From Natronolimnohabitans innermongolicus JCM 12255 (GTDB lineage: Archaea > Halobacteriota > Halobacteria > Halobacteriales > Natrialbaceae), in contig NZ_AOHZ01000054.1 of the NCBI RefSeq assembly GCF_000337215.1, forward strand, positions 1 through 43,315: a stretch of DNA of 43,315 nt, in the 5' to 3' direction. The position numbers and the translations under genes were made by a program. Below, in pieces: positions 37,034 to 39,247 of the stretch (the stretch's first letter is position 1; every line of letters begins with the position of its first letter). The notes beneath the pieces are model-generated. The model was not told the origin of the DNA. It did not search any database and saw only the letters and a list, made by a program, of their open reading frames with translations.

Positions 37034-37337
37034 GGTCCTGAATCGACGGCCTGAACGGCTCCGTCGACAGAAGCCGGTAGGAGACGAACACGACAGGAGC
37101 AAGTGTTCCCCTGAGCCAACGCGCTCGAGGGCGACGCTGTGACTGGACGGGTGCGACGACGAATCCGCAGAAGCAGGTGCGAGTGCGGATTGGGTGGACC
37201 GACTCAAGTGAAATCGGTGAACGATGGCTCGAGCGGTTAGATGGACCGTCCATCCCCAATCGAATCGTTGGTGAGTGAGCGGTTCGGAGAACCCGAACGA
37301 CGCCGTTCACCGAGCGCTTTGTACTAAATTTTGCCGA

Positions 37338-37569
37338 GGGCCGCCTTCGGTGGCCCGTGGTTCGAAAGGCGCTTCGCGCCTTTCGTCATCACGAGAGAGC
37401 TTCGCTCTCTCGAACGACAGAGCAAAATTCAGTTTCAGGCTCGCGGGTCGCGTTCGCTCCCCGTCTGCTCACGGGCGCGAAGCGCCCGTTCGCATGGTCC
37501 GCGGGATCGAAGATCCCGCGCTACTCGCCGTTTCGAGGTTCTCACTCGCTTCGCTCGTTCCGAACCTCG
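37338..37569. repeat. Array of short-loop hairpins downstream of the thermosome gene
   Basis: At least six inverted repeats sit in a row. 37338-37356: GGGCCGCC/GGTGGCCC with loop TTC (one G-U pair; the tip can form a C-UUCG-G loop). 37363-37385: CGAAAGGCGC/GCGCCTTTCG, 10 pairs, loop TTC. 37392-37412: CGAGAGAGC/GCTCTCTCG, 9 pairs, loop TTC. 37471-37489: ACGGGCGC/GCGCCCGT, 8 pairs, loop GAA. 37500-37520: CGCGGGATC/GATCCCGCG, 9 pairs, loop GAA. 37534-37569: CGAGGTTC/GAACCTCG with a 20-base loop. The stems differ in sequence but keep the loop rule. The array starts one base after the thermosome stop codon (37571-37573) and would be in its 3' untranslated region. A smaller one (GTTCGG/CCGAAC) is at 37282-37298. 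The rest of the 37003-37570 spacer holds the next gene's promoter and no gene. Confidence 0.85.
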
Positions 37570-37570
37570 C

Positions 37571-39247
37571 CTACATCATGCCGCCCATGCCGCCGCCCAT
37601 ACCGCCCATGCCGCCGCCCATGCCACCGCCGCCCGGTGGCATCTCCTCGTCATCGTCGTCGTGGGAGACTGCGAGGTCGCCCGCGGCGATGACGTCGTCG
37701 ATGCGCAGCAGCATGACTGCGGCTTCGGTAGCGGATTCGATGGCCTGGGTCTTCACGCGCAGCGGCTCGTAGACGCCTTCCTCGGCCATGTCGATCGTGT
37801 CGCCGGTGTAGGCGTCCAGCCCGGAGGCGGTGTTGCCGCCGTCGTGGTCGGCGCGAAGCTCGACGAGCGAGTCGATGGGGTCCAGCCCGGCGTTCTCGGC
37901 CAGCGTGCGCGGGATGACCTCGAGAGCGTCGGCGAACGCTTCGACGGCGAGCTGTTCGCGGCCGCCGACGGAGTCGGCGTAGTCGCGCAGGGCGAGCGAG
38001 AGCTCGATCTCGGGGGCGCCGCCGCCGGCGACGACCTTGCCGTCCTCGAGGGTCGTGCGGACCACGCCGAGGGAGTCCTCGATGGCGCGGTCGACCTCGT
38101 CGATGACGTGCTCGGTGCCGCCCCGGAGGATGAGGGTGACGGCCTTGGCGTCGTCGACATCCTCAACGAAGATGCGCTGGTCGCCGGCGATCTCCTTCTG
38201 GGCGACGGAGCCGGCGAAGCCGAGGTCGTCCTCGGTCAGGTCGTCGACGGAGGAGACGGGCGTGGCGCCGGTCGCGCGGGCCAGCTGGGACTGGTCGCTG
38301 GACTTGACGCGGCGGACGGCGATGATGCCCTCCTGAGCGAGGTAGTGCTGGGCCATGTCGTCGATGCCGCCGTCGACGAAGACGACGTCGGCGCCGGCGT
38401 CGGCGACCTGCTCGGCCATCTCGCGGAGCTGGGCCTCTTCCTGCTCTAAGAACTGCTCTAACTGGTCGGGGTCGGTGACGTTGACCTCGGCGTCGATCTC
38501 GGTTTCCTTGATCTCTAGGTCACCGTCGACGATCGCGACGGAGGCGTCCTCGGCGAAGTACGGCATGTTGTCGGAGACGCGTTCCTTGTCGACGATGACG
38601 CCCTCGACGAGCTCCGAGTTCTCGATGGAGCCGCCGACGACCTTCTCGACTTTGATGTTGTCCGTGTCGACGCCGTCGTCGTCGGCGACGGCCTGGACGG
38701 CCTCGACGACGAGTTCGGAGAGGAGGTCGCGAGCGCTTTCGGCGCCCTTGCCGGTCATCGCCGTGGCGGCGATCTGGTGGAGGATCTCGTCGTCGTCCTC
38801 CTCGACGTCGATGGCGACGTCCTCGAGGGCCTCCGTGGCTTCCTCGGCGGCCTGGCGGTATCCCTGGGCGAGGGTGGTCGCGTGGATGTCCTGGTCGAGG
38901 AGGTCCTCGGCCTGGCTGAGGAGTTCACCGGAGATGACGACGGCGCTCGTGGTGCCGTCGCCGACCTCGTCCTCCTGGGTCTCGGCGACTTCGACGATCA
39001 TGTCCGCGGCTGGGTGGTCGATCTCCATCTCCGAGAGCAGCGTCACGCCGTCGTTCGTGACGATGACGTTGCCCGAGGAGTCGACGAGCATCTTGTCCAT
39101 CCCCTTCGGTCCGAGCGTCGTTCGGACGGACTCGGCGACGGCCTTGCCGGCCTGTACGTTCATCGACTGTGCGTCTTTGCCGGAGGTCCGCTGGCTGTCC
39201 TCCGAGAGAACGATAAGGGGCTGGTTGCCCATCTGCTGTTGTGCCAT
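37571..39247 (-). CDS. ths: Thermosome subunit (group II chaperonin)
   Basis: A 558-residue chaperonin subunit. The N-terminus has [27 protein letters not shown] (nucleotide and Mg binding), then [11 protein letters not shown] with the catalytic GDGTT, the apical domain, and [20 protein letters not shown] near the end. The C-terminus ends in GGM-type repeats ([16 protein letters not shown]), which point into the folding cavity. It folds proteins in an ATP-driven double ring. Haloarchaea usually carry two or three paralogues; the [10 protein letters not shown]-terminal form looks like the beta/Cct2 group, but I would not fix the letter. Two TATA-like boxes lie upstream (39274-39282 and 39357-39364). 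An unusual hairpin array follows the stop codon. Confidence 0.95.

Follow-up and report, generated by a model that had tools for sequence, protein, structure and literature searches.

The closest described relatives of the repeats reported here are the small mobile repeats SMR-A and SMR-B of Haloquadratum walsbyi, multi-copy elements of ∼80–110 bp that have neither a transposase nor a target duplication and that insert into palindromes (PMC3119063). Extragenic palindromes of the REP, BIME and REPIN type provide a second point of reference; proposals for a role in DNA topology or protein binding exist for REP elements (PMC1525189), and a survey of REP sequences contains no mention of haloarchaea (PMC3733652). 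With regard to gene ends, T stretches and some hairpins terminate transcription in Haloferax volcanii, where one hairpin stopped 59% of transcripts in a reporter (PMC7237163). A structured RNA of the same class of organisms, the haloarchaeal S15 leader, is a 5′ leader with a set ligand (PMC7247131).

The locus analysed here is an array of hairpins directly 3′ of a thermosome gene of Natronolimnohabitans innermongolicus JCM 12255. It lies in a window of 43,315 nucleotides, the term denoting the whole stretch of DNA that was analysed. On the thermosome sense strand, dispersed hairpin repeats form a nested mosaic in the array: a gene-end element (motif C) and a further hairpin (E) are interrupted by two inserts (modules A and B). 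Like the SMRs, these units are haloarchaeal, multi-copy and without a transposase, and modules A and B insert in palindromic elements with no target duplication; they differ in being 60 nt long with covarying hairpins, whereas the SMRs are ∼80–110 bp long with prominent inverted terminal repeats. The hosts here are gene-end hairpins, in contrast to the PATEs and IS605-type transposons that host SMR-A. Module A and motif C span most of the class. The comparison of modules A and B with the SMRs is drawn from the published description of the latter. With REP, BIME and REPIN elements the repeats share a location behind or between genes, many copies, mosaic clusters, often convergent neighbours and use as targets for other insertions, but the stems here are perfect, capped by triloops and change in sequence from copy to copy, and no RAYT transposase is linked to them; no GTAG/CGTC tag stood out in the repeat alignments. 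ERIC-like repeats and MITEs are similarly intergenic, palindromic and non-coding with internal insertions, but the gene-end copies of motif C have no constant terminal repeats or target duplication and their stem sequence is not conserved; intergenic copies do carry inverted ends (TCACTACAGG/CCTGTACTGA) within longer palindromes. The H. volcanii terminators resemble motif C in lying behind genes, in the T4 stretch and in the hairpins upstream of some 3′ ends, whereas motif C is far more complex and forms a conserved sequence family. The S15 leader and other Rfam cis-regulatory RNAs are comparable as covarying structured motifs in Halobacteria, but the genes ahead of motif C have many different functions, and no Rfam family matches it. 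A known Rfam RNA was ruled out by searches of Rfam 15, which matched nothing in the array at E ≤ 1 and nothing at the gathering score in five full motif C loci, in agreement with an initial annotation of this DNA that knew of no described family with such a pattern. Literature searches found no description of these repeats and only the Haloquadratum SMR/PATE elements as relatives. Integron sites of the attC type, considered for their position behind genes, were dropped on context, as copies follow core genes at orthologous sites and not cassette arrays. By analogy, the array appears to behave like the extragenic palindromic mosaics (REP/BIME, SMR), with membership in either not established.

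As the minus strand encodes the thermosome, the array reads from right to left. Its features in the window are as follows, in the order in which they are read.

37571–39247, minus strand: thermosome (chaperonin) subunit coding sequence, an open reading frame whose protein ends in GGMGGMM, with stop codon TAG at 37573–37571.
37534–37569, minus strand: stop-proximal hairpin, CGAGGTTC..GAACCTCG, 8 bp with a 20-nt loop; loci L272 and L277 have the same hairpin in the same place.
37524–37528, minus strand: left part of hairpin E, GCGAG, separated from the right part by module B; the uninterrupted hairpin (CGAGCGGGG..CCCGCGAG) is found at the orthologous sites L267, L272 and L283.
37464–37523, minus strand: module B, a 60-nt unit of two hairpins (37500–37520 and 37471–37489) within hairpin E, immediately 5′ of CGGGG; it recurs in the same genome and is absent from the orthologous L272.
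37439–37463, minus strand: right part of hairpin E, CGGGGAGCGAACGCGACCCGCGAGC, from comparison with orthologous loci.
37435–37437, minus strand: TGA, a possible former stop codon, in the context TGAAACTGAATTTTGC, which L064 has right behind a thermosome paralogue.
37418–37432, minus strand: 5′ arm of motif C, CTGAA-TTTTGC-TCTG; a match to covariance model R1 spans 37436–37306 (E = 8.6e-5).
37358–37417, minus strand: module A, 60 nt inserted in motif C, with TCTG on one side and CGGG on the other; a match to covariance model R2, of which the window copy is part, spans 37415–37356.
37324–37357, minus strand: apical hairpin of motif C (37338–37356) and its 3′ arm TCG-GCAAAA-TTTAG, from sequence comparison and the R1 match.
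37306–37323, minus strand: tail of motif C, here ACAAAGCGCTCGG, consensus ATnAAAAGCACTCCTCC, from the R1 match and the alignment of copies.

Four of the hairpins are perfect with triloops: 37363–37385 (10 bp) and 37392–37412 (9 bp) with TTC on the plus strand, and 37471–37489 (8 bp) and 37500–37520 (9 bp) with GAA. The hairpin at 37338–37356 has a single mismatch (G:T on the plus strand, A:C on the sense strand). A shuffled 43-kb window contains ∼3.25 perfect triloop hairpins of at least 8 bp, corresponding to ∼0.01 in 158 bp, where four are observed. The sense-strand fold of 37320–37575 has an energy of −133.6 kcal/mol, compared with −97.3 ± 5.1 kcal/mol for dinucleotide shuffles (z = −7.14; 0 of 200). 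The initial annotation had described a run of six hairpins in the thermosome 3′ flank, and these are present in the positions it gave, in sense orientation and in a number beyond chance. It had missed the outer arms of motif C (37418–37432 pairing with 37324–37357), which enclose the three left-hand hairpins, and had overlooked hairpin E, split by 37464–37523. Its statement that the array is not a duplication is correct within the array, where the stems differ and the linkers define three families, which rules out simple tandem duplication, but the units belong to repeat families dispersed genome-wide. The TGA at 37435–37437 may be a former stop codon, with L272 lacking a TGA at this position. 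The best thermosome orthologues in genomes of the family have 76–96% identity.

With the array as query, blastn against the 4.59 Mb genome returned 51 matches at E ≤ 10, the array itself among them, of which 13 have E < 0.001. Most are matches to pieces of the array, and the loci resolve into three units, each with linkers that are conserved and stems that change. Motif C has the form TTTTGCKCTGC-hairpin-TCGGCAAAA with a covarying basal stem. Its outer arms are TTTTGC/GCAAAA, the bases of its internal loop (KCTGC/TCG) are conserved and its apical hairpin is exchangeable; the tail is rich in pyrimidines, which make up 84% of positions +20 to +29. The basal stem bears T4/A4, and each strand carries a T4 stretch. 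Many sites have additional segments in common behind the tail, with which the full element can extend to a few hundred bases. Exact copies number 12 in this genome and occur in 13 of the 31 genomes searched, this one included. Model R1, built without the window copy, has 22 matches at E ≤ 0.1 in the genome and also detects motif C in 99 of 145 haloarchaeal genomes, representing 47 of the 59 genera of the class; outside the Halobacteria it matches only five genomes, marginally (E of 4e-4 to 1e-3). The interrupted copy is its only match in the window. Carriers of motif C include Natrinema, Haloterrigena, Natronococcus, Natronorubrum, Natrialba, Halostagnicola, Halobacterium, Haloferax and Halonotius. 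The initial annotation had proposed a covariance search for runs of stems with TTC/GAA loops and would have regarded the array as a local accident if the region were untranscribed and no other haloarchaeon had one like it; the core was found to recur behind thermosome genes of other haloarchaea, the opposite outcome, and a local accident is ruled out by the class-wide occurrence of the units. The motif C pattern is also contained in 19 IMG/VR contigs (L293–L311). The intergenic copies mentioned above (L041, L126, L144, L161, L212 and others), with their common ends, are central in longer transposon-like palindromes whose terminal repeats are of at least two unrelated kinds (CAGTAG..GGTTTCTTTATTC and GGTTCTGTTGAAATCC).

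Module A has the form GTTCG-hairpin-TGATGA-hairpin-CGAACCACG; in the window the hairpins 37392–37412 and 37363–37385 are connected by the TGATGA joint and closed by a GTT/AAC stem. At E ≤ 1e-4 its family occurs in 92 of 97 genomes, from 43 of 45 genera, with up to 49 copies, and its ends carry only the short inverted GTCGTT/AACCAC, with one mismatch. Module B reads TAGCGC..hairpin..linker..hairpin..GAGCAGA on the sense strand, and its copies in the same genome (L002, L004, L005, L007, L008 and L010) have conserved linkers and changed stems. As judged from uninterrupted relatives, module A is inserted in motif C and module B in hairpin E. Removal of 37358–37417 joins CTGAATTTTGCTCTG to CGGGCCACC.. 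and yields a normal motif C, and the insertion point is the same in the window, L002, L063 and L259. Removal of 37464–37523 joins GCGAG to CGGGGAGCG.., which reproduces hairpin E as it stands uninterrupted in L272 and L267. Compared with the window, the thermosome 3′ ends at L272, L267 and L268, which have neither module, display intact hosts. A general rule that module A lies in complementary flanks is unsupported (2 of 40 copies with runs of at least 7, or 5% against 2% in shuffled sequences), and the assignment of hairpins as hosts therefore draws on the recurrent motif C context and on the window itself. The invariant linker GTGATGA of module A, in the window (37358–37417) and in copies generally, is identical to the archaeal box C consensus. 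A kink-turn or box C/D reading of this linker was rejected, as no conserved matching CTGA partner and no box D partner were found.

The nesting bears on the main rival explanation, in which all of the units, motif C included, would be non-autonomous mobile hairpins with no host function, comparable to the Haloquadratum small mobile repeats and to bacterial REP/BIME, and gene ends would be merely tolerated or targeted sites. Such an origin would account for dispersed copies with patchy presence, nested insertions with no target duplication seen, the deletion scars at L277 and L281 and the copies located within transposon-like palindromes, whose terminal repeats are of two unrelated kinds, and the Haloquadratum repeats themselves insert into palindromes (PMC3119063). 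We consider it improbable, given that no transposase is linked to motif C or the modules, and that the very tight spacing from stop codons described below and the repeated retention of copies at the same orthologous sites across genera would both be unusual for a neutral mobile element.

A same-strand upstream gene is called for 132 of 174 motif C copies, which overlap in species and hence are not independent, and ∼103 of the 132 begin 1–12 nt past the stop codon, a lower bound owing to further stop-anchored copies that the simple gene caller missed. At thermosome genes the spacing is 7 nt in 10 of 10 loci. The upstream genes, whose names are our reading of the sequences, recur as follows (number of loci in parentheses): EngB (12), GyrB (9), L10e (8), Lrp-like (6), probable Orc1/Cdc6 (6), TrkH-like (5), DNA polymerase D large subunit (5), TFS (4), eIF1A (3) and PurF (3). 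This range rules out a 3′ untranslated region specific to the chaperonin or to heat shock. At L178 and L189 motif C begins 6–7 nt behind a tRNA gene. At L055 and L217 it lies ∼115–150 nt past a tRNA gene, directly behind an apparent second tRNA 3′ end, and the two loci look as if the insert rebuilt the tRNA gene end by duplication. In the EngB 3′ flank, ∼25 of 29 genomes of one genus retain motif C at the same place; the basal stem, apical hairpin and optional inserts differ by species, the unpaired parts are constant, and the other loci are decayed or empty. Five EngB loci (L314, L315, L326, L331 and L335) have an extra module, TCTTCAAAAGAGC..GCTCTTTTGGACCTCGCGGGATC..GATCCCGCTCAG, inserted right behind the GGCAAAA of motif C. 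Among thermosome 3′ flanks of the family, motif C directly follows the stop codon in 7 of 30 inspected loci and is preceded by a hairpin pair in L267, L272, L283 and L288; it has been deleted with scars in L277 and L281 and is absent from many others. Motif C is missing from about half of the thermosome orthologues inspected and is thus dispensable there.

Placement at gene ends in sense orientation is that expected of a terminator, and motif C may be an extragenic palindromic element that marks transcript ends. A terminator role is favoured by the T4 stretch on both strands, the pyrimidine-rich tail and the frequency of convergent neighbours, and the element may stabilize or terminate the thermosome mRNA, as put forward in the initial annotation. 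Counting against a role at gene ends, the T4 stretch is short and some copies lie away from gene ends, in antisense positions or in transposon-like palindromes; a T5 run within 150 nt downstream follows only 4 of 103 copies. The placement past stop codons could reflect target preference or tolerated insertion instead of function. An antisense motif C between the end of a ferritin-like gene and the next promoter (L146, L167, L195 and L216) is conserved in several genera. The neighbours of sense copies with both genes called (n = 120) are convergent in 70 cases and tandem in 50. By analogy with the gyrase-binding BIMEs of enterobacteria, the hairpins might serve topology or nucleoid proteins as landmarks on the DNA where genes end; the near-perfect DNA palindromes and the many convergent pairs would suit this role, the copies between tandem genes would not, and we regard it as quite improbable.

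The stems change while remaining complementary. In an alignment (A1) of 30 motif C copies from other sites, 33 double-sided stem changes were counted against 10.6 in shuffles, and the covariation score is 0.202 against 0.057 (0 of 500); slid controls did not exceed 0.055. Changes on one side of a stem hardly occur, with 33 double against 0 single in A1 and 61 against 3 in a second alignment (A2). The covariation score for module A is 0.339 against 0.135. Apical stem pairs of motif C comprise 1183 Watson–Crick, 8 G:T and 13 A:C, and module A has 539 Watson–Crick, 6 G:T and 6 A:C. A functional RNA usually shows many single G:U steps and few A:C. The pattern expected of a cis-regulatory RNA, in which compensation is accompanied by tolerance of G:U over A:C, is thus found only in its first part: compensation is strong, but G:U and A:C number 8 and 13 in motif C and 6 and 6 in module A. 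Since G:U is not above A:C and single-sided changes are nearly missing, the covariation need not mean selection at the RNA level.

These counts weigh on the proposal of motif C as a structured RNA that functions in the 3′ untranslated region of mRNAs, for example in protein binding or stability, maintained by RNA-level selection and with the modules as optional domains. We judge this improbable in view of the lack of a preference for G:U over A:C (P = 4e-4 if G:U were three times commoner than A:C), the near-absence of one-sided changes and the copies behind tRNA genes or in antisense or non-genic places, although the sense orientation directly past stop codons, the strong covariation with an invariant internal loop, the retention at orthologous sites while stems turn over and the very stable sense-strand fold would all be natural for such an RNA.

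The loops provide a further indication. Copies that share a stem often carry loops that are exact inversions of each other (TTC/GAA, TCC/GGA), and the stem GGGCGCGAC has only GGA (seven copies) and TCC (three copies). Among pairs with the same stem and different loops, 168 of 666 are exact inversions against 17% over all pairs, a modest excess over this background because a few loop types dominate. Polymerase template switching yields both arm homogenization and spacer inversion, including ttc/gaa in triloop palindromes (PMC8604942). The initial annotation had seen a rule in the TTC and GAA loops and considered their switch in mid-array unexpected; loops vary freely among copies, and the change from TTC to GAA fits spacer inversion by template switching with no functional rule needed. 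Stems and loops together speak more for DNA palindromes that template switching keeps perfect than for RNA selection of the classic kind.

We favour, with a probability of roughly 55%, the interpretation that motif C is a gene-end element with a role there, invaded by dispersed modules in a nested mosaic and kept up at the DNA level. To the modules, their distribution, their anchoring at gene ends and the nesting with uninterrupted relatives, all of which are read directly from the copies, this interpretation adds the following steps. The arms would stay complementary and the loops flip through template switching on DNA and exchange between copies, with block exchange between dispersed copies adding to template switching. 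With less certainty, motif C may be retained behind housekeeping genes as a terminator or 3′-end protector, and modules A and B may be passengers that use hairpins as landing sites. A more far-reaching version is tentative at best: a class-wide system in which a composite stop-anchored 3′-end element of ∼75–300 nt would define the ends of housekeeping transcripts, and a process that targets hairpins without a transposase would exchange its interchangeable hairpin cassettes and insert one into another.

If the favoured interpretation is correct, a large share of the intergenic DNA behind essential haloarchaeal genes would consist of a few recognizable, uncatalogued hairpin families, and how haloarchaeal genes end would become testable at named sites. 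The nested insertions would be a natural record of small transposase-free elements moving into hairpins. For searches based on covariation a caution follows, in that template switching on DNA can create strong covariation in palindromes and covariation alone is not proof of a functional RNA. Elsewhere in the same genome, one locus (L012, on C84 near 45 kb) is a tandem array of ∼52-bp units, GCGGTTCTCACTCACTTCCCACTCGCGGGTCACTCCGTTCCCCGCTCGCCTC.
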